From the NCBI RefSeq assembly GCF_000832305.1, contig NZ_CP010536.1, positions 1,426,001-1,490,000 on the forward strand: a stretch of DNA of 64,000 nt, read 5' to 3'. The translations under genes and the position numbers were made by a program. The notes below the pieces were generated by a model, which was given only the letters and a program-made list of their open reading frames with translations, did not search any database and was not told the DNA's origin. Shown one piece after another: positions 19,604 through 41,323 of this stretch. Origin of the DNA: Cupriavidus basilensis. GTDB taxonomy: Bacteria; Pseudomonadota; Gammaproteobacteria; Burkholderiales; Burkholderiaceae. Positions within the stretch are counted from its first letter, which is position 1. Each line of letters begins with the position of its first letter.

Positions 19604-22051
19604 ATGCAATTCTCGGAATCCTGGCTTCGCAGTTTCGTCAATCCCGACAAGATTTCCACCGATGCGCTCTCGCACAGCCTGACCATGGCCGGGCTGGAAG
19701 TGGAAGAGGTCGGCCCGGTCGCGCCGCCTTTCAACAAGGTGGTGGTGGCGCGCGTGCTTTCCACCGAGCGTCATCCCAATGCGGACCGTCTCAACGTTTG
19801 CCAGGTCGATGCCGGCACCGGTGAGACCCTGCAGATCGTTTGCGGCGCACCCAATGTCGCGCCCGGCGTCCTGGTGCCTTGCGCGCTGGTCGGCGCGGTG
19901 CTGCCGCCGTCCGAGGCGGGCGGCAAGCCGTTCGAGATCAAGGTAGGCAAGCTGCGCGGTGTGGACAGCTTCGGCATGCTCTGCTCGGCGCGCGAGCTCA
20001 AGCTGTCGGAGGACCACGGCGGCCTGATGCTCCTGCCCGAAGATGCCAGGATCGGCATGGACATTCGCGAGTACCTGGACCTGGATGACCAGGTCTTCGT
20101 CATCAAGCTCACCCCCAACAAGGCCGACTGCCTGTCGATCCACGGCGTGGCGCGCGAAGTCGCCGCGCTGACCGGTGCCGCGCTGCGCCTGCCGGAGATG
20201 AAGCCGGTTGCGGTGACACTGGCCGACAAGCTGCCGGTGAAGATTTCCGCCCCCGACCTGTGCGGCCGTTTCTCGGGCCGTGTGATCCGCGGCGTGAACG
20301 CGCACGCGGCCACGCCGGCATGGATGGTGCAACGCCTGGAGCGGGCAGGGCAGCGCAGCATCTCCGCGCTGGTCGACATCTCCAACTACGTGATGCTCGA
20401 ACTCGGCCGCCCCTCGCACGTCTTCGACCTGGACAAGATCCACGGCGGGCTGGATGTGCGCTGGGGCCGCAAGGGCGAGCAGCTCAAGCTGCTCAACGGC
20501 AATACCGTGGAGCTCGACGAGCAGGTCGGCGTGATCGCCGACGACAAGGAGATCGAGAGCCTGGCCGGCATCATGGGCGGCGACAGCACCGCCGTGACGC
20601 TCGACACCACCAACATCTACCTCGAAGCCGCCTTCTGGTGGCCGCAAGCGATCCAGGGCCGCTCGCGCCGCTTCAACTTCTCGACCGACGCCGGACATCG
20701 CTTCGAACGTGGCGTGGACTACGCCACCACGGTTGAGCATATCGAGCGCATCAGCGCGCTGATCCTCGAGATCTGCGGTGGCCAGGCCGGCCCGGTCGAC
20801 GACCAGATTGTCAACCTGCCGCAACGCAAGCCGGTGCGACTGCGCGTGGCGCGTGCCGAGCGCGTGCTTGGCATCGAGCTGTCGCCTGCGGTCATCGCCG
20901 ACGTGTTCCAGCGCCTGCAGTTGCCGTTCGCCCGCGAGCAAGGCGAGGACGGTGAGGTGTTCGTGGTCACGCCGCCGAGCTATCGCTTCGATATCGAGAT
21001 CGAGGAAGACCTGATCGAGGAAGTAGCCCGCATCTACGGCTTCGAGCGTATTCCGGCGCGCCCGCCGATCGCCGAAAGCGAGATGCGCCCGACCGACGAA
21101 GCCCGCCGCTCGACCCATGCGGTACGCCACGCGATTGCCGCGCGCGACTACCAGGAGGTGATCAACTTCGCCTTCGTCGAAGAGAAGTGGGAGCGCGACT
21201 TCGCCAGCAACGACAACCCGATCCGACTGCTGAACCCGATCGCCAGCCAACTGGCGGTGATGCGTTCCACGCTGATCGGTGGCCTGCTCGACAAGGTGCG
21301 CTACAACCTCAATCGCAAGGCATCGCGTGTGCGGATGTTTGAAGTGGGCCGCGTGTTCCATCGCGACGCCTCGGTTGCCGATGGCGGCCTGACGGTGGCC
21401 GGCTATCGCCAGCCGATGGTTGCCGGCGGCATTGCCTACGGCCCGGCCTTCGACGAGCAGTGGGGCATCGCCACCCGCCCGGTGGACTTCTTCGACGTCA
21501 AGGGCGATGTCGAGGCGTTGCTGTTCCCGCGCGTCGCGCGCTTCGAGCCGGTATCGCATCCCGCGCTGCATCCAGGCCGCGCCGCGCAAGTGGTGATCGA
21601 CGGCAAGGTCGCCGGGGTGATCGGCGAACTGCATCCGCGCTGGCTGCAGGAGTACGAACTGACGCAAGCACCGGTCGTGTTCGAACTGGACCTGCAGGCA
21701 CTGCGTGAAGTGGGCTTGCCCGGCTACACCGAAATCTCCAAATTCCCGGCCGCCGTACGCGACCTGGCACTGGTGGTAAAGCAGTCGGTGCGCGTGCAGG
21801 ACCTGCTCGACGCCATGCGCGAAGCCCTGGAAAAACAGGGTTCTGCCCGCTATTGCCAGAGCCTGGTGCTGTTCGACGAGTTCCGTCCGAAGGCGGCTTC
21901 GGCGGCCATTGGCGCGGACGAGAAAAGCCTTGCGTTCCGCTTGACCTTGCAAGATACTGGGGCGACCCTCCAGGACGAAACCGTCGACAGCGCGGTGCGT
22001 TGCATGGTCGAAGCCGCCGGCGCTGCATTCCAGGCGCGGATGCGCGGCTGA
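19604..22051 (+). CDS. pheT: Phenylalanyl-tRNA synthetase beta subunit
   Basis: The 815-residue protein has an N-terminal tRNA-binding OB fold (residues about 40-150, [16 protein letters not shown]), the B3/B4 editing region ([19 protein letters not shown]), a B5 domain, the core, and a C-terminal anticodon-binding FDX-ACB domain ([14 protein letters not shown] and [13 protein letters not shown]). It is the partner of pheS directly upstream (71-base gap) and is followed by ihfA, the usual order in proteobacteria. Confidence 0.97.
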
Positions 22052-22114
22052 TCCACCAGCTGACATGACAATGGAGCGCCCGGACTTCCGCATCCGGGCG
22101 GATCGCCACACCGA

Positions 22115-22537
22115 ATGACAATGAACGATCGACACGCGTATCTCATGGCCTCTGCAATGGGTGAAGCAGGCGACCGCCAGGCAGCCTCGCTCGACGACGA
22201 TACTTCCGACGCCCGCGTTGCCGAAGTGCCGACCCTTACCAAGGCCGAGCTCGCTGAAATGCTGTTCGACCAGGTCGGCCTCAACAAGCGTGAGTCCAAG
22301 GACATGGTCGAAGCATTCTTCGACGTGATTCGCGAAGCGCTGGAACAGGGCGACAGCGTCAAGCTCTCCGGCTTCGGCAATTTCCAGTTGCGCGACAAGC
22401 CGCAACGTCCCGGCCGCAATCCCAAGACGGGCGAGATCATTCCCATCACGGCGCGACGCGTGGTGACGTTCCATGCCAGCCAGAAGCTCAAGGGCCTGGT
22501 GGAAGAGCGTGCAGGCCTGGTGGCGGTGCCCGGCTGA
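22115..22537 (+). CDS. ihfA: Integration host factor subunit alpha
   Basis: The 140-residue product has an N-terminal extension of about 40 residues. The full HU/IHF fold follows: [40 protein letters not shown] with the DNA-intercalating RPGRNPKTG arm, and [19 protein letters not shown] bends DNA and is often used by phage integrases, which is notable because a prophage integrates 700 bases downstream. The true start may be one of the later ATGs; extensions like this are common in Burkholderiales. Confidence 0.94.
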
Positions 22538-22661
22538 TCGTTTGCCAGCAGCACGACGACTCGTTATCCTGCTGAATCCGTGTATCACGCTTGTTTGCGC
22601 GCTAGCCCGCGCGAGCACCACAACCTCTCCCGGCACGGCCTGAAGCCCGCCCATTCACCGT

Positions 22662-23093
22662 ATGTCGGAACGATCCAGCGAACGCATCTTGTTGCCGCCG
22701 ATTCCCGCCAAACGCTACTTCACCATTGGAGAAGTCAGCGAGCTTTGCGCCGTCAAGCCGCATGTGCTGCGCTACTGGGAGCAGGAGTTCACGCAACTCA
22801 AGCCCGTCAAGCGACGTGGTAACCGGCGTTACTACCAGCATCATGAGGTCCTGCTGATCCGGCGTATCCGCGACCTGCTGTACGAACAGGGCTTCACGAT
22901 CAATGGCGCCCGCAATCGCCTTGACGAAGGGCGGCAGCACAGCCAGGCCGCCGCCGAAGACGTGCAAGCGTTGGCTGCGCAAGCCGCCGGTGAAGCGCCG
23001 GTTTTCTCGCTCGACCTCAACAACCTGCGCAACGAACTGGTGGAAGTGCAGCACCTGCTCGCGCAGCTTCAACAGATCGCGAAGCACGAATAA
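22662..23093 (+). CDS. MerR-family transcriptional regulator
   Basis: The 143-residue protein has a MerR helix-turn-helix at residues 18-85 (YFTIGEVSELCAVKPHVLRY, RRGNRRYYQHHEVLLIRRI) and a C-terminal coiled coil for dimerisation. It lacks the metal-binding cysteines of metal-sensing MerR proteins. A MerR-type gene directly after ihfA is a conserved arrangement in proteobacteria, but its effector is unknown. Confidence 0.92.
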   Translation: MSERSSERILLPPIPAKRYFTIGEVSELCAVKPHVLRYWEQEFTQLKPVKRRGNRRYYQHHEVLLIRRIRDLLYEQGFTINGARNRLDEGRQHSQAAAEDVQALAAQAAGEAPVFSLDLNNLRNELVEVQHLLAQLQQIAKHE

Positions 23094-23149
23094 AAAGTGC
23101 GCTAATGACTAGCCATTTTTAAAAAGCTTCTGATATAATCTTTTTCTTT

Positions 23150-23226
<77 letters not shown>

Positions 23227-23234
23227 GTATTAAG

Positions 23235-23270
23235 AACCCGCTAGATCAACGTCTAGCGGGTTTTTTCTTT
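23235..23270 (+). terminator. Terminator after tRNA-Pro
   Basis: A perfect 11-base-pair stem (AACCCGCTAGA/TCTAGCGGGTT) is followed by TTTTCTTTTC. It ends the tRNA transcript and lies at the prophage junction; whether it is host or phage DNA depends on the exact attL crossover, which one end cannot show. Confidence 0.9.
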
Positions 23271-23307
23271 TCTGATCCGGCTAGTTCCAGCACCTCCAGA
23301 AGTAGCC

Positions 23308-23331
23308 AAATATTATGCGCGCATAATATTT
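23308..23331. repeat. 24-bp perfect palindrome next to the integrase stop
   Basis: The dyad has half-site AAATATTATGCG and its exact complement, centred at 23319/23320, two bases before the integrase stop codon. It has no T tail, so it does not look like a normal terminator. Its place between attL and int suggests a binding site for integrase arms, IHF or an excisionase, but that is inference. Confidence 0.6.
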
Positions 23332-23332
23332 C

Positions 23333-24430
23333 TCAATCCCAAGGTAGGCTAACGTCCATCTCAGAGCGTTCAGGGAACGCCTCCTTGATGTAGATCGCGG
23401 TCGTCTTTGCGGTCGTATGGGCTAGCCGTTTCTGGATATCGGCAGCGTCATTTCCATCCCTGGCAGCGTCGGTTGCGCCCAAGGCTCGCAAGTCCTTGAA
23501 GACTATTTGATCCGTTACCTTCGCCCGAGATTTGGCGCGTCGCCACATGGAATGCAGGCCCGTTTTAGAGTAGGGCGTTCCGGCCTGACTGGGAAAGAGA
23601 TAGTCCGTCTTCACTCCATATTTTTTCTTGATCGCCTTGGCTCGGTCGATAACCACCTGAATGTGGGTCGTGATAACGACATGGACCACCTTGCCGCTGC
23701 TGCCGGCGGTCTTGGATGGTTTGAAGCGGATGACGCCGTCTGAGATTTGGCTCTCGGTCAGATTTCTGACGTCTGTGCCCCGTTGCCAGACCAGGTAGGC
23801 CATGTCGATGATGCACTGGAACATCGGGCCGGACTCGGTCGGTAACTTGTCCTCGCCGACGAGGGCGGCCGCCCGAATCCGCTTGATGGCGTCATGAGTG
23901 GGTAGGACCTCTCGGCGCTTAGTCTGGTAGTCGGAAAGGTCCAGGTTATCGCAGGGGTTGTCTTCCCTGAGGCCAAGTTCACTAATCGCCATCTTGAACA
24001 TCTTTCGGAGGACGTTAGCGTACTTCTGGGCCGAGTTCGCCTTGTCGGAGAAGTTGTCTCTGAGGAAATCGGCGCATGCCTTGGTCGTCACATTGGCCAC
24101 GAAGAAATCCCGGAAGCTCTCACTGATGGTGTCTGCCATCCGCCCATAGTCAGATTGCACGCTGTCGGTGTACCGCTTGAGCTTCCGCGCCTTCCATTCC
24201 GTACAGAGGTAAGGCATCGACCCATCGACCAGGCGCTTGTCCGTGAACAACTCGCTCAGTCGGCTGAACATCTTGCCCTCGCCATCGTCCACCCGGCACA
24301 GCTGGATGAGGCGCTGTGTCTTGCCGGTCCAAGGATTGCGCATGGGGGCGGGCGCGGTGAAGTAGTAGGCTCCGTGGTTGACGATAACGCGCTTCGGCAA
24401 CCCCTTGTGGCCCTTTCGTGCTCGGCCCAC
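23333..24430 (-). CDS. int: Tyrosine-type site-specific recombinase (integrase)
   Basis: The 365-residue protein has an N-terminal arm/core-binding part and a C-terminal catalytic domain. RGTDVRNLTESQI carries the first Arg, FKDLRALGATDAA holds the box II Arg (with Lys where His is usual), LAHTTAKTTAIYI has the His and the nucleophile Tyr near residue 347. It should integrate and excise the prophage at the tRNA-Pro gene. Its start overlaps the stop of the DUF4224 gene by one base, so the two are co-translated. HK022/P2-like integrases are relatives by pattern. Confidence 0.95.
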   Translation of the reverse strand: MGRARKGHKGLPKRVIVNHGAYYFTAPAPMRNPWTGKTQRLIQLCRVDDGEGKMFSRLSELFTDKRLVDGSMPYLCTEWKARKLKRYTDSVQSDYGRMADTISESFRDFFVANVTTKACADFLRDNFSDKANSAQKYANVLRKMFKMAISELGLREDNPCDNLDLSDYQTKRREVLPTHDAIKRIRAAALVGEDKLPTESGPMFQCIIDMAYLVWQRGTDVRNLTESQISDGVIRFKPSKTAGSSGKVVHVVITTHIQVVIDRAKAIKKKYGVKTDYLFPSQAGTPYSKTGLHSMWRRAKSRAKVTDQIVFKDLRALGATDAARDGNDAADIQKRLAHTTAKTTAIYIKEAFPERSEMDVSLPWD

Positions 24431-24693
24431 TAGCGCTTCCTCTGAATCTTGTGCAGCCTGGGTGGTGCAGATCCCATGCCGGATGACGGTGCTGCTGCCA
24501 GTGCCGGCGGTGGGGCGCAGGGGTATTGGCAGTGCATGCGCAGTACCAGTAGGGTATTGTCGGGTCGCTTTCGCGAGGGGATGCCGAGGGCTTGCAGAAC
24601 ATCCATCTGCTTTCCGGCACGCTTGAAGCCAGTCATCTTCACCAGTTCCTGGGGGGTGAGTTCGAGGGGAGGGGATTCTAGTACGGCGACCAT
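24430..24693 (-). CDS. DUF4224 domain protein, possible excisionase or Int partner
   Basis: The 87-residue product carries the short DUF4224 signature (LELTPQELVKMTGFKRAGKQ, then LQALGIPSRKRPDNTLLVLR), a small helix-turn-helix-like domain often encoded directly upstream of phage integrases. The C-terminal 35 residues are Ala/Pro-rich. ATG 24693 is used because the domain starts eight residues later; the frame continues further upstream without family features. A role in directing excision is likely but inferred from position. Confidence 0.75.
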   Translation of the reverse strand: MVAVLESPPLELTPQELVKMTGFKRAGKQMDVLQALGIPSRKRPDNTLLVLRMHCQYPCAPPPALAAAPSSGMGSAPPRLHKIQRKR

Positions 24694-24695
24694 GG

Positions 24696-25268
24696 TTACC
24701 CCGCAGAACCGAAAAAGGCGGCCAGCAGTGGCTCGCGGCGGATGAGCTTCCCGCGCTTCAAGTAACGTCGATTGACGTACTTCCGCTGCCTCGCGTGCCA
24801 ATCCTCGGGGTCGAACTTGTCCCGATACCGTTGCTGCATTTCACGAGGGGTCAGCTTTTGCGGTTTAGGCTTGCTCTCACCTGGAATCGGTAGGAAGTAC
24901 GCCTGCAGATGTCCTCGCCGCGTGGCACGGACCCAGTCCACGATATGCGCCGAACCATCGTTAACATGCTCGCTGACTAGGCTTCGGATCTGCTCGGCAC
25001 AAATTCCTGTCAGCTTGCTGGCTTGGAGTGCTGTGAGAGGTTTGCCATCCTTCATCAGATGCTTGAGCACTTCCCACGTCGGCGAATACTTGCGCGACTT
25101 CTTCGGCAGTTCGAGCTCGCGGGCCTTTTCCTTGACCGCCCCACAGGTGCGACCGGGGAGCAGATGCATACAAGCCTTTACCGGGATCCCTGACCGCCAG
25201 ATGTCCCGGATGACGTCCAATTCGGGCTCGGTCCATTTCCTTCTGACGATCTTGATCACGGCTTCCAT
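24696..25268 (-). CDS. Putative DNA-binding protein with SANT/Myb-like N-terminus
   Basis: The 190-residue protein begins with a tryptophan-rich helical motif (KWTEPELDVIRDIWRSGIPV, then LLPGRTCGAVKEKARELEL) that resembles SANT/Myb or Gcr-type DNA-binding domains of phage proteins. A second winged-helix-like segment follows at about 60-115. The C-terminal third is very basic. It lies in the minus operon with the DUF4224 and integrase genes and ends two bases before the former. Exact function is not recognised. Confidence 0.65.
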   Translation of the reverse strand: MEAVIKIVRRKWTEPELDVIRDIWRSGIPVKACMHLLPGRTCGAVKEKARELELPKKSRKYSPTWEVLKHLMKDGKPLTALQASKLTGICAEQIRSLVSEHVNDGSAHIVDWVRATRRGHLQAYFLPIPGESKPKPQKLTPREMQQRYRDKFDPEDWHARQRKYVNRRYLKRGKLIRREPLLAAFFGSAG

Positions 25269-25453
25269 TTACATCCCTCGCAGCGCTGGTCCTTGGTGCT
25301 TTGGCTGTATTGACAGCCCGTCGACATGACGTCCAGAACGAAGACCATCCGTGCCATTCGCGTGGTGACGTCCGTTGATTCGGCGTAGATCCATCCGTCC
25401 TGGGCGAAATAGCCTGCCTGGCGGTTGTCGTTGTTGTGGCAGCCGTAGCTCAT
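25256..25453 (-). CDS. Small cysteine-containing phage protein
   Basis: A 65-residue product with a C-terminal cysteine cluster (STGCQYSQSTKDQRCEGC) that could bind zinc. ATG 25453 follows ATGAGGC, a weak ribosome site. It is the first gene after the operator-promoter at 25485-25513 and overlaps the next gene by 13 bases. No family recognised. Confidence 0.55.
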   Translation of the reverse strand: MSYGCHNNDNRQAGYFAQDGWIYAESTDVTTRMARMVFVLDVMSTGCQYSQSTKDQRCEGCKWKP

Positions 25454-25484
25454 GCCTCATATCGCATGTGATTGTATGAGGCTA

Positions 25485-25513
25485 ATAATAGCCATATAAG
25501 GCTAAACAAGCAA
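25485..25513 (-). promoter_or_regulatory. Operator-containing promoter of the int operon
   Basis: On the minus strand, TTGCTT (-35) and TATTAT (-10) are separated by exactly 17 bases, and the spacer contains the phage operator motif (TAGCC...GGCTA, 25489-25504). A second inverted repeat, GCCTCATA (25454-25461) with TATGAGGC (25475-25482), lies between this promoter and the first gene. It should control the integration/excision genes. Confidence 0.75.
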
Positions 25514-25527
25514 GTTTGATCCTCGTA

Positions 25528-25552
25528 AAAGTTCCCCGCTCGGCGGCGGGGA
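25528..25552 (-). terminator. Terminator of the DGR operon
   Basis: CCCCGC (25534-25539) pairs with GCGGGG (25546-25551); on the minus strand the hairpin is followed by AACTTTTACG. It lies about 40 bases past the last small gene of the retroelement operon and just upstream of the int operon promoter, separating the two. Confidence 0.65.
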
Positions 25553-25588
25553 TTCTGGCGCGCCGCGTCGTGGTCGCGGGAGGCGGAT

Positions 25589-25771
25589 CTAGCTGGCCTC
25601 CGCCGAGAGTTCTTCATGCACGCGCACAATGGTGATGCGCTCATCGTCAGAGAGCGGTCGAACCTGGCCGGCAATCATGTACTCGAGCAACGGTCGCACC
25701 ACCGCTTGATCCTCGGCGGCAAGTTCCTCAATCTTTGGCGCGATGGCCATCAGGATCTGGGAGTTCGTCAT
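25589..25771 (-). CDS. Small acidic protein downstream of the DGR reverse transcriptase
   Basis: A 60-residue product (MTNSQILMAIAPKIEELAAE, ending VRVHEELSAEAS) starts 48 bases after the reverse transcriptase stop on the same strand and ends before the operon terminator. It is mainly helical and acidic by composition. No family is recognised; it could be an accessory part of the retroelement or an unrelated phage gene. GGGGATGACC upstream of ATG 25771 gives a modest ribosome site. Confidence 0.55.
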   Translation of the reverse strand: MTNSQILMAIAPKIEELAAEDQAVVRPLLEYMIAGQVRPLSDDERITIVRVHEELSAEAS

Positions 25772-25818
25772 TCCTGGTCATCCCCTTTGTCGAAGCTATG
25801 TTGAAAGGTCGGTTTCAT

Positions 25819-26997
25819 TCAGGTTGTATGGGAGCGATATGCCTTGGTTAGTTGGCGGTTCACTGAATGCCCGCGCTTGCGGACAATGTTTGCGAAGCGA
25901 GCCCGATCCGTATGGCTGCCCGTCGCTTGGCGAAGGAGTCCGAAGTAGCTGTTGGCGGCCGCATGTAAGTCAGCGGCATCCATTTGCCGCAGTCGACGCG
26001 CCCCTTCATTGACTGTTCGGGGCCGAGTGGTGCGTACCCATGGGCTAATGACTTGACCGACAAAGTCGATGCCTCGCTCGACAGGCTGTAGGATGGTTTT
26101 GGAAGGATTCAGCCGAGCGCCCAGTTCGCGAGGCAAGAAGGCTTCGATGTCGTCATGCGCTGCGTTCAGCCACTGGGGCGACTCATGCAGGAGCACGAAG
26201 TCGTCCACGTAGCGGACGTAGTGGCGGGCGCGCACCTGGTGCTTCGCATGCTGGTCAAGCGAGTCAAGGTACACGTTCGCAAAGAACTGGCTGCTCAGGT
26301 TGCCGATCGGTAGGCCTCGATGCGCTGGCTGGTTCAATAGACTCTTATACGGCGGTACCAGCGCCAGCAGTTCGGCCGGCGCTTGCATTTGGACATCCGG
26401 GCGCGGATCATGCATCAACACCAATTCGGTCAGCCACATCCACCAGGGCTCGGTGATACGTGCGGCGAGTTGCGCGCGTAGCACGCGCTTGTCGATGCTG
26501 ACGAAGAAGTTCGCCAGGTCGCATTTCAGGTACCAGGCCGGCCGCGCCCAATTCTTCGTGACACTGCGCACCTTGGACTCGAGGCGGCGCGCGGCGTACA
26601 GAGTGCCACGGCCAGGAATGCATGCGCAGCTATCTGCGATGAACGAGGCATAGAAGCGCGGAGAAATGTGGTTGTAGAGTAGGTGGTGCACCACACGATC
26701 GCGGAAGTCGGCAGCCCATACCTCGCGCGGCTTCGGGCGTGTGACCACGAAGCAGATCGATCTGCCGGGTCGATAGCTTCCATCGGCGAGCTCGTCGGCA
26801 AGCCGGCATAGGTTCCGCTCTAGGTTCTGCTCGAAGGCGAGGGCATTGTGGGTGTTTCGCTTGTTCTTCCGACAATCGAAGTAGGCCACCACCAAGTCCT
26901 CGAAGGAAAAACCAGCAGGAACCGCATCGGCATGATCTGCGGACGGCCCGGGCGCGAAACTCGCTACTCTTGTGGTTGTTGTTCTGATTGCCATCAT
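25819..26997 (-). CDS. DGR reverse transcriptase
   Basis: Conserved text starts at FSFEDLVVAYFDCRKNKRN (residues 30-48 of the 392-residue frame from ATG 26997), which matches the N-terminus of diversity-generating retroelement reverse transcriptases. Motif A is YLKCDLANFFVSID (Asp 160); the DGR-specific LPIGNLSSQFFANVYLD (229-245) has SQ where group II intron enzymes have SP; the catalytic YVDD is at 263-266. It copies template-repeat RNA with errors at adenines. The start is uncertain: the open frame runs through the template repeat, ATG 26997 and 26994 lie inside that repeat, and TTG 26895 or the following GTG codons would cut the conserved start. No good ribosome site is visible. Confidence 0.95.
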   Translation of the reverse strand: MMAIRTTTTRVASFAPGPSADHADAVPAGFSFEDLVVAYFDCRKNKRNTHNALAFEQNLERNLCRLADELADGSYRPGRSICFVVTRPKPREVWAADFRDRVVHHLLYNHISPRFYASFIADSCACIPGRGTLYAARRLESKVRSVTKNWARPAWYLKCDLANFFVSIDKRVLRAQLAARITEPWWMWLTELVLMHDPRPDVQMQAPAELLALVPPYKSLLNQPAHRGLPIGNLSSQFFANVYLDSLDQHAKHQVRARHYVRYVDDFVLLHESPQWLNAAHDDIEAFLPRELGARLNPSKTILQPVERGIDFVGQVISPWVRTTRPRTVNEGARRLRQMDAADLHAAANSYFGLLRQATGSHTDRARFANIVRKRGHSVNRQLTKAYRSHTT

Positions 26998-27044
26998 TGA
27001 AGTTCTGATTCCACGCGTTGTTGGAGTTGCTAGCGGACTGCGTC
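26935..27044 (-). repeat. DGR template repeat (TR)
   Basis: This 110-bp segment, read on the minus strand, is near-identical to the 3' ends of both target genes (27597-27706 and 28272-28381). In the target frame it would read as a run of Asn codons (AAC, AAT) where the targets vary. The 3' end (GC-rich CGCGCCCGGGCCGTCCGC) corresponds to the expected initiation-of-mutagenic-homing region. It lies between avd and the reverse transcriptase, as in the Bordetella phage system. Its RNA should be the mutagenised template. Confidence 0.97.
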
Positions 27045-27196
27045 TATTCGTGCTATCTACGTCGCCTCGCCGAAGGCCTGGGCCGATCAGTGGGGAAACT
27101 GCGCCAGACCAGCCCTGGTGACTCCCAGCGGTATCTGTGATGCGCATGGCGGTGGCCTTGTGAGCCAGCGGCACGACCAGATTAAAAATCGCACGG

Positions 27197-27220
27197 GCAT
27201 GACCGCCTTGACGGTCATGC
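27197..27220 (-). promoter_or_regulatory. Hairpin between avd and the template repeat
   Basis: GCATGACCG and CGGTCATGC form a perfect 9-base-pair stem with a six-base loop, overlapping the avd stop codon. On the minus strand it is followed by CCGTGCGATTTTTAATC, so it may act as a partial terminator or as a structured element at the 5' side of the template RNA. The 150 bases between it and the template repeat hold no gene. Confidence 0.55.
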
Positions 27221-27568
27221 AACAGGCGACGATGCGGCTCTCCGCCATCCATTGGCTTGCTTCCCGATACTGTTGGTAAGCACTACGGTCTTGGCATACT
27301 GCTGCCTAGAGATGAGCCGCTTGTCTACCGATAAGCGCAGCAGAAGCTCAGTCACCTGAAGGCGTTCGATCAGGTCCAGTAGATGCGGAGATTTCTCTCG
27401 GGCCGTGTTCGCCCGAAATATCAGGACGGTGATCTTCACGCACTCGTCGCGGATGACTCCGCCAATCGACGCCTTGTAGTCACGAGGCATATTCTTGGCG
27501 AGGTCCGTGACGGCGTCGAGCAGGTCGTATGCCACCTTGTAGATCGGAAGGCTGGTATGGATGGCCAT
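27215..27568 (-). CDS. avd: DGR accessory variability determinant (Avd-like)
   Basis: The 117-residue, four-helix protein (MAIHTSLPIYKVAYDLLDAV, MPRDYKASIGGVIRDECVKI, ERLQVTELLLRLSVDKRLIS, YAKTVVLTNSIGKQANGW) matches the Avd/S23-like helical bundle family. In the Bordetella phage retroelement Avd forms a pentameric barrel that binds the reverse transcriptase and template RNA and is required for mutagenic cDNA synthesis. It sits between the targets and the template repeat, 17 bases after target gene 1. Basic patches fit RNA binding. Confidence 0.93.
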   Translation of the reverse strand: MAIHTSLPIYKVAYDLLDAVTDLAKNMPRDYKASIGGVIRDECVKITVLIFRANTAREKSPHLLDLIERLQVTELLLRLSVDKRLISRQQYAKTVVLTNSIGKQANGWRRAASSPVA

Positions 27569-27585
27569 GCTGAATGACTAAATAA

Positions 27586-28197
27586 TCAAGGGACTAATCT
27601 GCGGACGGCCCGGGCGCGATACTCGCTACTCTTGCGGGTGATGGTCTGACCGCCATCACCGAAGGTCTGATTCCACGCGAAGCCGGAGTTGCTAGCGGAC
27701 TGCGTCGAGGACCAGTGCCATGCCTTCTCGAAGAGTTCGGGAACATTGGCGTACATGAGACTCAACTCGCGACGTGCCGGCAGATAAAAGTCGGAGTGGC
27801 CATCGATTGACAGGCTCCGTGCCCACTGCGCTGCCGGGTGGGCATGGCGGGAGCAGGACAGTGCCTCGGTGTTTGCCCAACCGTCGAACTCGCTCTTTGC
27901 GCCGGTCTCGTCATGGTCAGCACTGCCCCATGCGATCTCTTCTACCGATGCGTCGGGGTGCGTCGGCACGATCAGGTGATAGTCTGTCTGCCCGTTCTCG
28001 CCGCGCATTACCCCGGCATACACGCCTCCCTGGCCGGCCCATATCTCGCCGATGCGGGGAGTACTGGTGCTTTGCTTGGCGGCAGGTTCCGCTCCTGTTA
28101 CAAGGCTGTCCAGCCATGCCCTCATGACCGACTTCGCGGGAAGGGTCACTTGTGCTTCGCCGACCTGGAAGGTCACGTTCTCTGCAACGTGCGTCAT
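27586..28197 (-). CDS. DGR variable protein 1 (DUF1566 / C-type-lectin-like)
   Basis: The 203-residue product ends in a DUF1566-type C-type-lectin-like domain: DFYLPARRELSLMYANVP, HWSSTQSASNS, then the variable segment and KSSEYRARAVRRLVP. The last 36 codons form variable repeat 1, so diversity falls on the exposed ligand face of the fold. No signal peptide or membrane segment is visible. ATG 28197 is favoured because GGAG lies nine bases upstream; a GTG start at 28212 is possible. It follows target 2 by 60 bases and is paralogous to it through most of its length (GGVYAG and YHLIVP correspond to GGFYAG and YALIVA). Confidence 0.93.
   Translation of the reverse strand: MTHVAENVTFQVGEAQVTLPAKSVMRAWLDSLVTGAEPAAKQSTSTPRIGEIWAGQGGVYAGVMRGENGQTDYHLIVPTHPDASVEEIAWGSADHDETGAKSEFDGWANTEALSCSRHAHPAAQWARSLSIDGHSDFYLPARRELSLMYANVPELFEKAWHWSSTQSASNSGFAWNQTFGDGGQTITRKSSEYRARAVRRLVP
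27597..27706 (-). repeat. DGR variable repeat 1 (VR1)
   Basis: Aligned to the template repeat without gaps, it differs at 14 of 110 positions. Thirteen fall on adenines of the template strand (T on the plus strand) and one, at plus-strand 27620, does not (A to T, turning Phe into Tyr). Changes cluster at Asn codons, giving GF, T, G, G, T-I-T, R at the varied sites. Confidence 0.97.
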
Positions 28198-28257
28198 TGG
28201 TGTTCGCTCCACTGAATAGGTAAAGGAAGGCCGCTGGCGCGGCCAAGAATGACTGAA

Positions 28258-28911
28258 TTACTGAATTTTTAATCTGCGGACGGCCCGGGCGCGAAACTCG
28301 CTACTCTTGAGGTTGAGGCTCTGAAAGCCAGCATTGAAGCCCTGAACCCACGCGTCGTAGGAGTTGCTAGCGGACTGCGTCGAGGACCAATAGGGCTCGG
28401 CTTCCAGTACCTCACTGCCATCTTCCTGGAAGAGCAGAACACGGGTCTGTGTGGGGAGCTCCTCCGTATAGGCATATCCAGCCGGAGCGCTGCTGGGGTT
28501 CTCACCGTCACGGAAGCCGGCATAGTTTCCGGCGGTGGGCTTGAGGTTGCGATAGATGAGCTCCAACTCGTCACGCGCCGGGAGGTACCAGTCGTGATTC
28601 CCGTTGACCTGCAAGCCAAGCGCCCATTTCGCGAGATCGCTTCCGGCCTCCGCCATGGCAGCGGTATTGGCCGCGCCGTCAAAGTAGCTGAGCGCGCCAT
28701 CGACGCGGCTACGATCACTGTTCCAGACGCTTTCGGCGTGCTCGCCAGTACCTTTGGGGGCGACGATGAGCGCATAGACTCCATCGGCTTGTCGGATCTG
28801 CCCGGCGTAGAATCCGCCGCCTGCTGCATCGCCGGCTCGGAGGGAGTCGGCTTCAACCTGGCTGATGGTGGTCTGTACGGCGCTTGCTTCAATTGTTGTG
28901 ATCGCGTTCAT
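28258..28911 (-). CDS. DGR variable protein 2 (DUF1566 / C-type-lectin-like)
   Basis: The 217-residue product has the same architecture as variable protein 1: a DUF1566-like fold with WYLPARDELELIYRNLKP, then YWSSTQSASNS, the variable segment and KSSEFRARAVRRLKIQ. It carries an extra loop (about residues 130-165) before the WSSTQ motif. The last part is variable repeat 2. AAAGGAAAG before ATG 28911 gives a good ribosome site. It starts the retroelement gene set, 63 bases after an unrelated small gene on the same strand. No export or tail-attachment signal is seen, so where the protein acts is unknown. Confidence 0.93.
   Translation of the reverse strand: MNAITTIEASAVQTTISQVEADSLRAGDAAGGGFYAGQIRQADGVYALIVAPKGTGEHAESVWNSDRSRVDGALSYFDGAANTAAMAEAGSDLAKWALGLQVNGNHDWYLPARDELELIYRNLKPTAGNYAGFRDGENPSSAPAGYAYTEELPTQTRVLLFQEDGSEVLEAEPYWSSTQSASNSYDAWVQGFNAGFQSLNLKSSEFRARAVRRLKIQ
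28272..28381 (-). repeat. DGR variable repeat 2 (VR2)
   Basis: Aligned to the template repeat without gaps, it differs at 13 of 110 positions, all at template-strand adenines. The varied residues read Y-D, V, G, A, F, S-L, L at sites that are Asn, Asp or His in the template. VR2 differs from VR1 at most of the same codons, so the two targets have been diversified independently. Confidence 0.97.
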
Positions 28912-28974
28912 TGCTTTCCTTTCGAGAGGTACTGCGCATCAATTGGGGGATGGGCTAAGGGTGAGTCGAATTCT

Positions 28975-29172
28975 TCACGTGTCGACGGCTTTGGATGGGG
29001 TAAAGACCTGTTTCGCGTGCATGGTCATCTCTGAGATGGCAGCGGTTAGCTTCCACGAGGGGTACTCACTTGGCAGTTGCTTCTGGAGTGCGACCCAGTC
29101 GGACAGTTTCATCTTGACGGTCAGCACCATCTCGACGTCGCCAGGGTTATCGATTTGGAAGGTCGCTCTCAT
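28975..29172 (-). CDS. Small phage protein, unknown
   Basis: A 65-residue product (ATFQIDNPGDVEMVLTVKMK, then LSDWVALQKQLPSEYPSWKL) whose start overlaps the stop of the upstream gene by four bases, so it is translationally coupled in the recombination operon. No family recognised. It is the last gene before the retroelement targets. Confidence 0.7.
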   Translation of the reverse strand: MRATFQIDNPGDVEMVLTVKMKLSDWVALQKQLPSEYPSWKLTAAISEMTMHAKQVFTPSKAVDT

Positions 29173-29624
29173 GCTGGCACTGCCGATATTTCAAGCAACT
29201 TGGGGAAACTCTTGCCCCACAGCTTGGCTGGCTTGTACCCCAAGTCTTTGCAAAGCGCAGCCAAAGCGTCGAGGGCCGTGTCCCCGAATCCTGATGCGGA
29301 TTCCTGGATATTGATGAAGTCCTTGCGCTTGGCACACCATTGGTTCCCATCGCGAGAGAGCACGGCTCCGACGCGGCCCGCGTAGATCTGCGCGTCCTCG
29401 TCCGTGCCGCCCCACTTGGTGGCCAACTCGGCCACGCGCTCGGCATTTGCGCCGGCGGCCTTGGCTTCAACCAGGATCTGCCATGCGCCGGCCCGGTCAG
29501 TCGGATCGCATGGCCAGAGTGCTACTGCGAAGGGACTCTCACGGATGTCCGCAGCAGCGTCGGGGGACGGCTTATAGATCAGGCTGCCATTGGTATGCAG
29601 GTAGTACCAACCGAGGATGCTCAT
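29169..29624 (-). CDS. Phage protein of unknown function
   Basis: The 151-residue product begins MSILGWYYLHTNGSLIYKP, an aromatic-rich opening seen in small phage proteins of the recombination region, followed by a Trp/Ala-rich helical part (AGAWQILVEAKAAGANAERV). ATGA overlaps join it to the genes on both sides. No catalytic motif is seen. Confidence 0.75.
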   Translation of the reverse strand: MSILGWYYLHTNGSLIYKPSPDAAADIRESPFAVALWPCDPTDRAGAWQILVEAKAAGANAERVAELATKWGGTDEDAQIYAGRVGAVLSRDGNQWCAKRKDFINIQESASGFGDTALDALAALCKDLGYKPAKLWGKSFPKLLEISAVPA

Positions 29625-30727
29625 GCTGCCTCCTTTGCCAATGCCGCTGGCATTACCTTGTTCGGCGCGCAGTCCCAGCCCTTCACCTCATCGGCCGTGA
29701 ACTTGCCGGCCTTGGACTTATCGGCGGTGTAGCCGCAGAACCCGGGCGAATGGAACAGTCGGTGTTCCTCGTGCCATACGACGAACAGTGCGGGGGCTCC
29801 CGGGAACAGGACATCGCGTAGCACGCCGGCGCGCTCGAAGTTCATCGCTTCGACGGCCTTCTGCAGCTCGCGCTCGAGGCGTTTGCGGCGGCGGTCGGCA
29901 TTGCGCTTGACTCGCAGGTTTTCGGGCTGGCGTGTGTATAGCTCGAAGCTGGCCTCGTTGTTCAGGTCGTACTTGCCGGTCACGACCCACCACATGTTGT
30001 TGATGTTGTAATAGGCGGTCCCGGTCAAGATGCGTCCGTGGTAGTCTGCAAACCAAACGCGCGCGCCGTGCGTCACGATGTCACCATCGGCGGACCGATT
30101 GTTGCCACAGTGGTCATCGCCTCCCGGCCGGCGGAGCGCCGGATCGTAGTGCCACGATTGCTTGTAGTGGTTGTCGATCCATTCAAGTGCAGTAACGCCG
30201 CCCGGTCCTCGCTTCGGTTCCTTCTCCGGCTGGAACTCATACCTGGTGAAGACATTGCACAGATAGTCGCGGATGCAGTTGCGAGTGCGATTCATCTCAA
30301 GGCGCTGCAGGTACGTCATGCGGCGTTCCTTGCCGAAGTCGTACTTGCCGCCGTTCGGGTTCTCGACGTTCTGCGCGTCCTGCCACATCTCGAACTTGAT
30401 GCTGCGCCCCGACACAGACAGCTCACCTTGTAGGTCGCCCTTGCGGCAGGTACGCCGCCGCTCCACAGCCCACCGGGCGACCGTGCCGCCGTAATGCTTC
30501 ACGTCACGCGGATCAATCGGCTGAACAGTGCAGCCCCAGCCAAGCCTGTTGAGTTGCTGAACAATGCGGGCGAACACGTCGCGCTTGAAATTCCGCTCCC
30601 ACGCTTTCTCGGCCTTGTAGCCGCCGGCATTGCGCGCCGCGCTGAGGCCTTCTTCCCAAACGGCCAGGCTGGCATCTCCAAAGGACAGCATGCCGCTGCG
30701 CTCAATGCGGCCCTTGGTCATGGTCAT
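29621..30727 (-). CDS. Large phage protein coupled to the SMC-like ATPase
   Basis: The 368-residue product starts at ATG 30727 with GGAGG four bases upstream and overlaps the ATPase stop by four bases. It contains long stretches rich in Arg and Trp and a C-terminal helical motif (EAMNFERAGVLRDVLF) that resembles the UvrB/UvrC interaction motif, plus aromatic segments (ADYHGRILTGTAYYNINNMW). I do not recognise a family. Tight coupling suggests it works with the ATPase, possibly as a nuclease or adaptor; no metal-binding nuclease motif is evident. Confidence 0.75.
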   Translation of the reverse strand: MTMTKGRIERSGMLSFGDASLAVWEEGLSAARNAGGYKAEKAWERNFKRDVFARIVQQLNRLGWGCTVQPIDPRDVKHYGGTVARWAVERRRTCRKGDLQGELSVSGRSIKFEMWQDAQNVENPNGGKYDFGKERRMTYLQRLEMNRTRNCIRDYLCNVFTRYEFQPEKEPKRGPGGVTALEWIDNHYKQSWHYDPALRRPGGDDHCGNNRSADGDIVTHGARVWFADYHGRILTGTAYYNINNMWWVVTGKYDLNNEASFELYTRQPENLRVKRNADRRRKRLERELQKAVEAMNFERAGVLRDVLFPGAPALFVVWHEEHRLFHSPGFCGYTADKSKAGKFTADEVKGWDCAPNKVMPAALAKEAA

Positions 30728-39029: not shown

Positions 39030-40358
39030 ATGAATTACTACGAGCGCTACGTGGGTGACATCCAACGGGACACCGGGCACCTCTCCTGCGCAGCCATGGG
39101 CGTGTATGACCGCCTGCTGGACCACTACTATGCGACGGAGCGGGCCCTGCCTGCCGACATCGATGCGCTCTGTCGCATCGCACGTGCGATGGATGCGACA
39201 GAGCGCAAGGCTGTAGAGGATGTAGTGCGCGAGTTCTTCCAGCTCGAGGGCGATAGCCTCTATCACCAGCACCGTACCGACGCTGAAATTACCAAGGCGC
39301 AGTCCCGCATTGAGGCGGCCCAGGAGAATGGGAAGCAGGGCGGCAAGGCGACAGCGAAGAAGCATCAGAGCGTCGCATCGCCTGGGTCGCTATATGCGAT
39401 ACGACTGTCGCATGCGACGGTCAAGGTGGGCGTCAGCACCAATTTCCGAAGCAGGTTGCATCAGCATCGAAAGAAGATTGGTCACCATGTGACCATGGTC
39501 CACGTTGTCGCTGTGGATAACATGGGCGAGGCCTTTGCCGGCCTGAAGAAATCCCTTGGTATTCAGGATGATGCGGACACCTTCGCGCTAGAGGTAGCGC
39601 ACGAGTCCACCCTTAAATCCTTCATGGATCTCTATTTGTCGCATACCCAATCCTATGCGACTGGCAATGCGAGTCGCATTGCCAGTCGCACGGCCCACCA
39701 CACGCCATACACCATTACTACTAGTAGAGAAGATAGTGGTGATATGGAAGGCAGTAGCAAGAGCGATGCGACATGCGACTTCACATCACACTTGCTGAAT
39801 GCGACAACAGGTGAAGCCAACCCGAGGGACGTCCAACTGGCGATCCTGCTGCGGAAGGGGTATGGGATGGACGCCAGCAGCGGCTCGGTTGAGGTGATCG
39901 AGATGGTTCAGCTCGCAGTTTCCGATCGCGAGATCCTGGATGCAGTCGAGAATTTCCGGATCAAGAAGCCTGGCGATACGCCCAATGCCAGCTACATCCT
40001 GAAGATGATCAAGAGCGTCCGGGAGAAGGCTGCAAAGGCTGCGGCGGCGGCCAACGGCACTGCATCGAGCGGCGGTGCGCCCGCGCCGGCAAGCACGGAC
40101 TGGTGGCATTTGGAGGAGGGCGTTCGGACCAAGGCAGTCGAGTTCAACGTTGTGCAACGCGTCGACAAGAACGAGCACTACCGGTCCTTTCGCATTCGGG
40201 TTTTCAAAGCCGCAGGTGAGGGCCCCTGGCGAGAGGCGGCACTCAGCGAAGCGGCACGCGATAACTCCGAGGAGCACGCTCGCGTCTTTGGGTATTTCTA
40301 CGACCAGCCACCGGCTCAGATCGGTCAACTCGCGCAACGGGCGCAAGAGGCGGCATGA
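39030..40358 (+). CDS. DUF1376 replication-type protein with GIY-YIG-like insert
   Basis: The 442-residue protein starts with a DUF1376 domain (MNYYERYVGDIQRDTGHLSC, AAMGVYDRLLDHYYATERAL, residues 1-105), found in phage replication-initiation proteins of the YdaU type. Residues 119-178 (GSLYAIRLSHATVKVGVSTN, FRSRLHQHRKK) resemble a GIY-YIG/T5orf172 domain, an unusual partner. The C-terminal part (DREILDAVENFRIKKPGDTP, NASYILKMIKSV) looks like a replication-protein tail. The gene DNA itself carries many TGCGAC repeats and may contain the origin, as lambda O does. Confidence 0.82.
   Translation: MNYYERYVGDIQRDTGHLSCAAMGVYDRLLDHYYATERALPADIDALCRIARAMDATERKAVEDVVREFFQLEGDSLYHQHRTDAEITKAQSRIEAAQENGKQGGKATAKKHQSVASPGSLYAIRLSHATVKVGVSTNFRSRLHQHRKKIGHHVTMVHVVAVDNMGEAFAGLKKSLGIQDDADTFALEVAHESTLKSFMDLYLSHTQSYATGNASRIASRTAHHTPYTITTSREDSGDMEGSSKSDATCDFTSHLLNATTGEANPRDVQLAILLRKGYGMDASSGSVEVIEMVQLAVSDREILDAVENFRIKKPGDTPNASYILKMIKSVREKAAKAAAAANGTASSGGAPAPASTDWWHLEEGVRTKAVEFNVVQRVDKNEHYRSFRIRVFKAAGEGPWREAALSEAARDNSEEHARVFGYFYDQPPAQIGQLAQRAQEAA
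39131..39805. repeat. TGCGAC repeat cluster, candidate phage replication origin
   Basis: Twelve copies of TGCGAC (either strand) lie in 675 bases inside the DUF1376 gene: 39131, 39194, 39372, 39407, 39413, 39638, 39656, 39673, 39685, 39767, 39774 and 39800. Two form palindrome GTCGCATGCGAC (39407-39418). The block 39656-39690 is a perfect inverted repeat with 17-base arms around one central base. The cluster is followed by an A/T-richer segment (39710-39745). This is the look of iterons in lambdoid origins within the initiator gene. Confidence 0.65.
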
Positions 40359-41323
40359 AGGCGCACATGGGCATTCCGGCCGGCCAGCGTAACGCGGAGG
40401 TGGGAGGCGAGCTCGTCATGCGGGTCGGAATCCCGCACAAGGGCGGAAAGCTGGCATTCCACGCCTTCAACGAAGGGTTCCCGGCCATGGTCAGCGCAAA
40501 TGCCTTCTGGAATCCAGCGGCTGGGGGCTTCCAGTTCCCTCGGGCGACGGACGTCTCGGAACTGGACTTCGCGATGGATAGCGCTGGCTATACCGCGATG
40601 AAGATGTGGCAGTCGAAGGGGCAACAGCGGGGCATGGCGGGTATCTTCCCCTGGACGTACTCGCAATACATCGAGTTCGCGACGCAGTCCGGAGCATCCT
40701 GGTGGTCGCAGCCCGATCTGTGCTGCGAGCCCGAAATTGCCCACAACCAGGAGGAAATCGACTTCCGGATAAATGCCACGGCTACCCTGCTGGAGGGGGT
40801 GCTGCGCATTCTCTATGAGTGGCAGAACGAGCTCGCGAGGACCTGCTCCTCCGCTGTCGTCGCTCATATGCTGAAGCCGCCTGTTCCAGTTCTCCAGGGG
40901 TGGTCAGCAGGCGACTACAGGCGCAGCCTGGAGTTGCTCAACGCCGTTTGGGAAAGATGGCAGCCATGGCTGGCCACGCCGGCGCTCATCGGCGTTGGCT
41001 CGGTGTGCCGGCGGACCCTGAAGCACCCAACCCACGGACTCTTCTCAGTTCTGTCAGCGCTGGAGGGTAATTTGCCTACCGGGTCGCGGCTTCACCTCTT
41101 CGGCGTGAAGGGGGCTTGCCTGGCAGAACTCAAAATGCTCGACTGGGTCGCGTCCGCCGACTCGATGGCCTACGACTATGGGGCGAGAGTGAAGGCGCAC
41201 CAGACTGGGATCTCGAACTCGATCGCGCACCGGTCTACGGAGATGAGTCGATGGATGTCGACAGCCTCGGACCTCGTGAGGCCGGCCGCCGGCGATCAGT
41301 TCCGTCTGAACCTCTTTGGGTGA
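40355..41323 (+). CDS. TGT-like protein of the DpdA / DUF7221 type
   Basis: The 322-residue protein follows the order of tRNA-guanine transglycosylase motifs in diverged form: DSAGY (75-79) in place of DSGGF, WSQPDLCCEPEIA (117-129), PVPVLQGWSAGDYRRSLE (176-193), IGVGSVCRR (212-220), HLFGVKG (247-253) and ASADSMAYDYGAR (266-278) holding the candidate nucleophile Asp. Phage members of this group are proposed or shown to put 7-deazaguanines into DNA. No queuosine-precursor genes are in the window, so any base would come from the host or from genes outside. It overlaps the DUF1376 stop by four bases. Confidence 0.78.
   Translation: MKAHMGIPAGQRNAEVGGELVMRVGIPHKGGKLAFHAFNEGFPAMVSANAFWNPAAGGFQFPRATDVSELDFAMDSAGYTAMKMWQSKGQQRGMAGIFPWTYSQYIEFATQSGASWWSQPDLCCEPEIAHNQEEIDFRINATATLLEGVLRILYEWQNELARTCSSAVVAHMLKPPVPVLQGWSAGDYRRSLELLNAVWERWQPWLATPALIGVGSVCRRTLKHPTHGLFSVLSALEGNLPTGSRLHLFGVKGACLAELKMLDWVASADSMAYDYGARVKAHQTGISNSIAHRSTEMSRWMSTASDLVRPAAGDQFRLNLFG

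Follow-up and report, generated by a model that had tools for sequence, protein, structure and literature searches.

A prophage diversity-generating retroelement of Cupriavidus basilensis in which the RT-15 RNA is predicted to pair with the 3' flank of the template

In the portions of the literature available to us, the mechanism by which diversity-generating retroelements (DGRs) copy their template rests on Bordetella phage BPP-1 (AY029185), where the template is followed on its 3' side by a structured RNA. The BPP-1 template repeat (TR) follows avd with a gap of 0 nt, and the 144-nt gap between TR and the reverse transcriptase (RT) gene holds the RNA family RF03022 (Phage_DGR). Pairing is possible between ATCACCT, within TR, and spacer positions 48-54, two nucleotides before A56, the adenine from which priming starts. 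That a spacer adenine primes the cDNA is described in PMC12875486. The locus analysed here shares with BPP-1 the order target-avd-TR-RT, adenine mutagenesis and an Avd protein, and its RT is 32% identical to Brt. It differs in having two targets rather than one and in where its RNA lies: the gap between avd and TR is 170 nt long and holds another family, RT-15, which is absent from BPP-1.

The locus lies in the window, by which we mean the whole analysed stretch of 64,000 nt of C. basilensis contig NZ_CP010536.1. Its minus strand carries a complete two-target DGR in the order target 2, target 1, avd, RT-15, TR, RT (Table 1), in agreement with an earlier note that had recognised such an element, with all these genes and repeats on the minus strand, in a prophage. 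Indeed, the neighbours are phage genes, namely an integrase, RecT, an exonuclease, a helicase and both terminase subunits, and the element of about 94.2 kb is bounded by a 57-nt exact direct repeat of the 3' end of tRNA-Pro. The RT translation contains IGNLSSQ and YVDD (SQ and YVDD being what we take to be DGR-type RT motifs) and matches 114 phage records by tblastn; the retron St85 RT model gives it 44 bits against a cut-off of 235, and TR/VR pairs and avd are present. The NCBIfam model DivGenRetAVD matches avd at E 6.3e-15, below the model cut-off. Each target is C-type-lectin-like and carries its variable repeat (VR) at the 3' end; the lectin-like domain Lcl_C scores above its Pfam cut-off in target 2 and just under it in target 1 (E 1.4e-7, 32.2 bits, cut-off 34.9); target 1 also matches PHROG 4245 (E 5e-34). 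The AlphaFold model of target 2 (pLDDT 80.8) has the Legionella Lcl C-terminal domain 8q4e as its best PDB match, a weak one (E 0.027, not below 0.001; probability 0.94), and with no better match the target fold was rejected as a finding. A 60-aa ORF at 25771-25589, which has no Pfam, PHROG or NCBIfam match, is the reason why the span given earlier began at 25589.

Table 1. Features of the DGR, with positions counted from the first letter of the window
Feature	Position	Strand	Description
Target gene 2	28911-28258	-	217 aa, Lcl_C/DUF1566, Pfam Lcl_C E 1.2e-11; 3' end diversified
VR2	28381-28272	-	in target 2
Two VR-flank elements, 8-nt-spaced (ATTCAGTAAT, ATTCAGTCAT)	28266-28249	-	after VR2
GC-rich hairpin	28244-28229	-	32 nt past CAGAT of VR2; 6-bp stem, 4-nt loop
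Target gene 1	28212-27586	-	208 aa, GTG start, Lcl_C-like
VR1	27706-27597	-	in target 1
VR-flank element (ATTTAGTCAT)	27583-27574	-	after VR1
avd	27568-27215	-	bAvd E 3.2e-13; PHROG 'Avd protein of DGR' E 6.8e-33
RT-15 RNA (RF03018)	27231-27041	-	cmscan 190.9 bits, E 1.1e-47, whole model; gathering score 82
RT-15 linker, predicted 5' strand of helix PL (AUCUG + upstream)	27187-27178	-	unpaired in Rfam model
RT-15 closing stem P2, 3' strand	27053-27048	-	pairs with 27176-27171; TR starts 4 nt on
TR	27044-26935	-	110 nt
TR 3' end + flank, predicted 3' strand of PL	26939-26930	-	covaries with linker in relatives
RT, conserved part	26910-25819	-	RVT_1 E 5.9e-16; PHROG 1423

Relatives were taken as the best 80 of 133 from one search and the best 80 of 342 from another, and TR and VR could be located in 150 of 161 loci. 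Filtering by the position of the avd stop and by length kept 147 of the 150, de-duplication left 117, and a VR alignment of more than 75 nt was available for 114. The Rfam model of RT-15 was applied to the window, to 9 of the 11 sources that entered one comparison, to 6 of the 13 in another and in the genome searches; for the remaining relatives, the presence of RT-15 rests on the alignment of the 117 loci. It had been remarked beforehand that two targets served by one template are less common than one. This is true of DGRs at large, of which about one seventh (PMC3521204) or 28.6% (PMC6642488) have multiple VRs, but not of this clade: among the 134 relatives whose sequence covers 2 kb or more upstream of RT, 128 have at least two targets. 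Two targets are thus normal in the clade, and we rejected them as a remarkable point.

Over 110 nt, VR1 differs from TR at 13 of 34 adenines and 1 of 76 other positions (Fisher p 4e-7), and VR2 at 13 of 34 and 0 of 76 (Fisher p 3e-8), so the claim that the repeats differ almost only at template adenines stands. The genome (8.42 Mb, 2 contigs) yielded no further full-length copy of TR; the other five of eight matches are 17-24 nt long, with E 0.4 or worse. Among near-identical relatives, five VR pairs differ at 59 of 163 adenines vs 0 of 375 other positions. Fifty VR comparisons between relatives were made, of which 42 gave no difference, most looking like the same DNA in two collections, and three of the eight with differences were left out, as they repeat L031 through L164. 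Because these changes fall at adenines only, the DGR clade looks active, as judged from the sequences of relatives other than the window copy. The window copy itself has no near-identical relative, the closest other genome of the genus being only 79% identical. It could in principle be a decayed, inactive remnant, considering the one non-adenine change in VR1 and the single assembly of the strain; we hold this to be very unlikely, since RT, avd, RT-15 and both targets have intact sequences, VR2 departs from TR at adenines alone, and relatives have changed only at adenines where their flanks are otherwise identical.

The RNA changes how the cassette is read. The earlier note had counted all parts known to be needed for mutagenic retrohoming as intact. 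This holds for RT, avd and the targets, but the RNA had been overlooked: the gap between avd and TR is RT-15, which overlaps the 3' end of avd by 17 nt and the 5' end of TR by 4 nt, whereas on the other side of TR only 24 nt separate its end from the conserved RT start, and a BPP-1-type structured spacer of about 140 nt is absent. RF03022 was not found at E 1 in window positions 22000-30000. RT-15 occurs in 11 of 200 genomes of the family and in 1 of 369 of the class, the window's own. When the search began from the RNA, a DGR RT was present together with avd, TR and VRs at eight of the nine non-window RT-15 loci in the 200 family genomes; at the ninth, L171, avd remains, RT is reduced to a fragment and a TR/VR pair is missing. 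In the alignment of 117 of the 150 loci, conservation of the block from the avd stop to TR lacks the codon rhythm of RT; the first RT codons, judged by eye, have that rhythm, unlike the all-position conservation upstream of TR.

RT-15 also coincides with the limits of the template. TR/VR homology starts 3-6 nt after the end of P2 in 99 of 114 loci and ends at most 2 nt from the T of CAGAT, the motif predicted to pair with the linker, in 101 of 114; its length tracks the loop length (rho 0.85). In 234 VRs, the last mutated adenine is 15 nt or more away from CAGAT, on its 5' side. These limits bear on the possibility that this is an ordinary BPP-1-like DGR, with the priming spacer located 3' of TR in the first part of the RT gene and RT-15 acting separately, as a regulatory element in the avd-RT transcript. 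Such a reading can appeal to priming from the 3' spacer in BPP-1 (PMC12875486), to the RT gene that directly follows TR in most loci, and to RT-15 being an Rfam family of its own. We nevertheless consider it unlikely: the limits of TR track RT-15 and the motif predicted to pair with it, the codon rhythm noted by eye already marks the first RT codons, and in L056, L058, L112 and L134 genes or an ORF lie between TR and RT while RT-15 and TR are still joined.

The pairing itself, a predicted helix that we call PL, would join the RT-15 linker to the 3' end and flank of TR. In the window PL is weak, with five contiguous pairs at CAGAU followed by two isolated pairs, one of them G-U. Across 117 relatives, at positions 5-8 past the C of CAGAT, the linker and TR flank form 2.82 of 4 pairs vs 2.10 when shuffled (z 11.5), and shuffling confined within clades gives z 3.2 (reached by 1 of 300 shuffles), 7.5 and 8.2 (0 of 300 each). 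Double changes from one Watson-Crick pair to another along branches number 24 at helix positions 0-9 and 0 at positions 10-13. These shuffle and branch-change tests on the 117 loci are the unpicked set. In a 40-row alignment, whose rows were hand-picked after the linkers had been seen, 89.3% of cells are paired vs 77.3% when shuffled (0 of 500), at most 41.9% when the rows are slid out of register, and 7 of 10 PL pairs have changed on both sides; RNAalifold, run unguided on the same alignment, did not predict PL. Only half of the loci have a pair at position 5 of PL, and a linker slid by -1 still forms 2.50 of 4 pairs vs 2.82 in register. Positions 12-15 of linker and TR flank pair less than shuffles do (z -4.1), and among the VR-flank positions a single one (6) gives z 4.4; thus, composition and relatedness leave marks on these scores. 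In L056, L058 and L112, where other genes separate TR from RT, RT-15, TR and the closing flank are still together, with perfect linker/flank complementarity of 10, 10 and 9 nt. This means that the constraint of coding for RT does not explain the pairing.

Could the pairing instead be a translational switch, which hides the RT start region and has no role in priming? Most loci have the flank at the RT gene or immediately ahead of it, and an in-frame ATG occurs within TR in 106 of 150; in the window, in-frame ATGs at 26997 and 26994, both inside TR, are candidate starts of RT. However, the pairing is kept or is stronger in loci where RT does not come next and its place is taken by a gene for a PAPS-reductase-domain protein or a DNA methylase or by another ORF, and the motif marks the limit of TR/VR homology, which makes a switch quite unlikely in our judgement. 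An RT start inside TR was rejected as evidence in itself: over the last 60 nt of TR, 145 of 150 loci have an open RT frame, but the other two frames are open in 119 and 147, and openness therefore says little. By common start codons, the RT start is forced into TR in 12 loci, 28 start after TR, and 28 do neither. An N-terminal RT extension encoded by RT-15 was likewise set aside, stops in the RT frame inside TR opposing it for 21 of the 150 loci.

The linker might also act on DNA, guiding the element to its target by pairing with VR DNA, and in the window its complement does match the VR2 flank over 12 nt (CAGATTAAAAAT). This match is not borne out over 244 VR flanks, which pair with the linker at the shuffled level (2.16 vs 2.10 pairs, z 1.4) and not in the way that TR flanks do, and in several Pseudomonas-type loci the linker fits the TR flank but not the VR flanks; we rejected the guide role as extremely improbable. 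The VR flanks have marks of their own. The VR-flank element occurs in 171 of 244 VR flanks, 1 of 117 TR flanks and 4 of 244 shuffled flanks, and GC-rich hairpins, which follow the VR in BPP-1-type targets, occur in 76 of 244 VR flanks vs 2 of 244 shuffled ones; in the window such a hairpin follows VR2, but the scan showed none after VR1.

We propose two readings in the following, of different reach. First, we think it likely that the RT-15 linker, through its predicted pairing with the TR 3' flank, closes the template into a loop and positions RT to copy adenines, with errors, into both targets. In this process, avd, RT-15 and TR would be transcribed together, and RT and Avd would bind RT-15. 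Synthesis of cDNA would start next to PL, with the invariant unpaired G after the linker (27177) as a possible origin, and end at the RT-15 closing stem, and the cDNA would then replace the VRs, which the ATTYAGTMAT repeats downstream of them, absent from TR, may mark as recipients. Second, and more tentatively, in that we lean slightly against it as a whole, RT-15 DGRs may represent a second, mirror-image design of template RNA. A 5' scaffold would grip the 3' end of the template by a covarying clamp, self-prime beside the clamp in a retron-like topology, copy the closed loop and stop at the scaffold stem; template length would thus be set by RNA architecture, and one scaffold would serve several targets.

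Should RT-15 serve another large clade as its template scaffold, a function would be assigned to an RNA that is catalogued with none stated. The limits of TR would also gain a physical cause, and a defined RNA of about 300 nt would allow priming in other DGRs to be tested in vitro. In practice, TRs could be found directly by searching 3-6 nt beyond where an RT-15 match ends.

RT-15 was reportedly described by Weinberg et al. in 2017 as a motif near RT genes. The name and type line of its Rfam entry (RF03018) state no function, and the model stops at the 5' edge of TR, so that TR and the covarying 3' closing strand lie outside it. The DGRs of Burkholderia phage Magia and Pseudomonas phage Cruim01, from other phages and hosts, have RTs 68-69% identical to that of the window, RT-15 and two VRs each, and are annotated without TR, VR or a link between RT-15 and the template; the Cruim01 record already annotates RT-15, and the co-occurrence is therefore visible in public data. 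The DGR of Bacillus phage BalMu-1 is also accompanied by an RT-series Rfam RNA, RT-14 (RF02921), which lies 3' of TR, in the position of the BPP-1 spacer; its RT is 34.6% identical, and one VR was found. Retrons differ from the present element, whose RT groups with DGR RTs and which has TR, VRs and avd; they offer an analogy in that a structured RNA lies 5' of the copied template. From the sequence comparisons assembled here, we infer that the template of this DGR may be closed by a 5' scaffold, in a manner mirror-like to that of BPP-1.

The two-target diversity-generating retroelement (DGR) claimed in the earlier note is real: both targets, avd, the template repeat (TR), the reverse transcriptase (RT) and the variable repeats VR1 and VR2 were all located on the minus strand, in the order target 2, target 1, avd, TR, RT. 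The repeats do differ almost only at template adenines, as had been stated: VR1 has 13 of 34 adenines changed and one T to A among the 76 other positions (Fisher p 4e-7), and VR2 has 13 of 34 adenines and none of the 76 other positions changed (Fisher p 3e-8). A whole-genome search found no further full-length TR copy; no further target of the same family was found in the genome, its four matches all lying inside the two targets and the TR. A 60-aa ORF at 25771-25589, inside the span delimited by the earlier note, has no family match.

Features of the DGR, its prophage and comparison loci
Feature	Coordinates	Strand	Remark
Target 2	28911-28258	minus	
Target 1	28212-27586	minus	
avd	27568-27215	minus	
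RT-15 RNA (RF03018)	27231-27041	minus	Rfam match, 190.9 bits
Template repeat	27044-26935	minus	110 nt
Reverse transcriptase	ends at 25819	minus	
ATTYAGTMAT-like elements after VR2	28266-28249	minus	
ATTYAGTMAT-like element after VR1	27583-27574	minus	
Tyrosine integrase	24430-23333	minus	adjoins tRNA-Pro
PAPS-reductase-domain gene	L056:6877-7959		between TR and RT
ORF without Pfam match	L058:7180-7944		between TR and RT
C5-cytosine DNA methylase gene	L112:7054-7983		between TR and RT

The view that two targets are less common than one holds for DGRs at large, where elements with multiple VRs make up the smaller part (about a seventh, in passages of PMC3521204; 28.6%, in passages of PMC6642488), but not for the element's own clade. 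Relatives of the RT, taken from contigs of genomes and viruses (the best 80 of 133 plus the best 80 of 342), were each scanned for a TR and VRs, with mismatches accepted at adenines only, and a TR/VR set was detected in 150 of 161 loci. At least two VRs were present in 128 of the 134 loci of this sample in which 2 kb or more precede the RT, and in 99 of 104 after de-duplication; as a two-target DGR, the element is ordinary for its clade. It also has in-frame RT ATGs inside the TR (26997 and 26994), as do 106 of 150 loci, while in 28 of 150 neither the TR nor the sequence after it offers a common start codon; passages of PMC3521204 (group 3) already describe a TR overlapping the RT ORF.

The earlier note overlooked the RNA block RT-15 between avd and the TR. 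Nearly all positions of the 170 nt from the avd stop to the TR are conserved in relatives without a codon rhythm, whereas the RT has one. A search of 200 genomes from the family detects RT-15 in 11, of which 10 score over the cut-off, and eight of the nine loci other than that of the window carry RT, avd, TR and VRs, so that an RNA-first search gives the same answer as the RT-first search: RT-15 goes with DGRs. The ninth, L171, is a decaying DGR, with a lone RT-15 (191.8 bits), avd kept, an RT fragment only and no TR/VR pair. Across the class sample, RT-15 was found in one of 369 genomes, the window's own. One public phage record annotates RT-15 beside the RT; in that of phage Haboob, the avd-RT gap holds an antisense hypothetical CDS (L200:4738-4950), possibly a spurious gene call over the RNA, at the place where RT-15 lies in the related record L207. 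The RT motifs were reportedly described by Weinberg et al. in 2017. Our literature search, which did not reach key RNA papers, found no paper on RT-15/RF03018 and, among the hits listed, none that ties RT-14, RT-15 or Phage-DGR to DGRs; a link may already be in print.

The first hairpin of RT-15 is joined to the closing stem P2 by a linker, AAUCUGG, unpaired in the Rfam model, whose AUCUG is complementary to CAGAU at the TR end; in many relatives this complementarity extends past the TR into the flank. We propose that the two sides pair as a helix, the clamp. Among 117 de-duplicated loci drawn from the best-relative sample, 2.82 of 4 pairs form at clamp positions 5-8, versus 2.10 with linkers shuffled among loci (z 11.5), and within-clade shuffles still give z 3.2, 7.5 and 8.2; against 244 VR flanks, the same test gives 2.16 versus 2.10 (z 1.4). 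On the RT tree, both sides changed with a Watson-Crick pair kept on 24 branches at helix positions 0-9 and on none at positions 10-13. In a hand-picked 40-row alignment (36 of the 117 loci plus L056, L058, L112 and L134), 89.3% of cells are paired, a total that takes in P2 as reference; none of 500 shuffles is as high, and sliding gives at most 41.9%. Seven of the ten clamp pairs changed on both sides in these rows, and pair 125-437 appears as UA, GC, CG, AU and UG. Several findings count against the clamp: RNAalifold run alone did not propose it, position 5 is paired in only half of the loci, positions 12-15 pair below the shuffled level (z -4.1), position 6 of the VR flank alone reaches z 4.4, and in the window's own copy contiguous pairing is limited to five pairs.

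INDEPENDENCE from the RT gene, RT-15, TR and flank stay joined in four loci, L056, L058, L112 and L134, the last with a 91-aa ORF separating TR from RT. Linker and flank are perfectly complementary over 10 nt in L056, 9 nt in L112 and 10 nt in L058, and L056 and L058 differ by one compensated clamp pair.

The TR/VR homology starts 3-6 nt past the 3' strand of P2 in 99 of 114 loci and ends within 2 nt of the T of CAGAT in 101 of 114; the loop measures 85-119 nt, and homology length tracks it (rho 0.85, 114 loci). The analysis shows the presence and position of RT-15, the linker/flank covariation and the coincidence with the TR limits. The mutated adenine nearest the clamp is never less than 15 nt away (median 26, 234 VRs). 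These limits and distances fit a cDNA that would start within the 3' end, or right at it, and stop at P2. Binding, priming and termination on the RT-15 template RNA are inferred.

In five VR pairs of near-identical relatives, 59 of 163 adenines differ but none of 375 other positions does; the pairs come from L031-L135 (three VRs, flanks 94-97% identical), L090-L091 and L130-L131 (flanks 100%). No such relative of the window's copy was found among 60 genomes of the genus, of which eight, its own included, had a match, the best other being 79% identical. TR adenines before G were changed in VRs in 11 of 843 cases, versus 2783 of 5209 other adenines (TRs of 117 loci), and at third codon positions in none of 34. 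Passages of PMC12875486 describe context effects that depend on the 3' neighbour; for NAG, they give a G misincorporation of 0.08%.

Downstream of the VRs, ATTYAGTMAT-like elements occur in 171 of 244 flanks; among TR flanks, 1 of 117 has them, and among shuffled flanks, 4 of 244. Their typical distances from the CAGAT start are 10 and 18 nt, and they often come as two copies with 8-nt spacing. Judging from their distribution, these AT-rich repeats may help mark recipients, as a candidate recipient-site signal. A GC hairpin lies 30-47 nt downstream in 76 of 244 VR flanks versus 2 of 244 shuffled, with no loop sequence in common; according to passages of PMC3240598, BPP-1 requires such a hairpin.

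The element carrying the DGR is a prophage, with RecT, exonuclease, helicase and both terminase subunits besides the integrase. An exact 57-nt repeat of the tRNA-Pro 3' end (23180-23236 and C1:1543380-1543436, that is, L215:3381-3437; the right copy falls short of a complete tRNA) bounds an element of about 94.2 kb, the left part of which lies within the window. Among the matches listed, the nearest named relatives of the RT and target are from Cupriavidus. Prophage genes at 40355-41323 and 42442-42987 resemble a queuine tRNA-ribosyltransferase (PHROG 1279) and a phosphohydrolase; a role in DNA modification is our guess.

Twelve other phage DGRs divide by RT identity. All six at 64-69% have RT-15 and two VRs, with the conserved RT start following 9-32 nt after the TR end; in all six at about 33-35%, RT-15 is absent, one VR was found and 135-320 nt lie in between. 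This distance is measured to the first conserved RT residue; in three of these six records (L204-L206), the annotated RT starts ahead of the TR end. BalMu-1, in the latter group, has RT-14 in its TR-RT gap, immediately 3' of the TR (L203:2798-2941), another RT-series Rfam RNA in the spacer position of a DGR. In BPP-1, the TR follows directly on avd and is separated from brt by 144 nt, a gap matching RF03022 (Phage_DGR), a family different from RT-15, whereas the window's DGR has its 170-nt RNA block between avd and TR. The interest of this DGR is its template RNA, RT-15 with a covarying clamp, on the side opposite to that of BPP-1.
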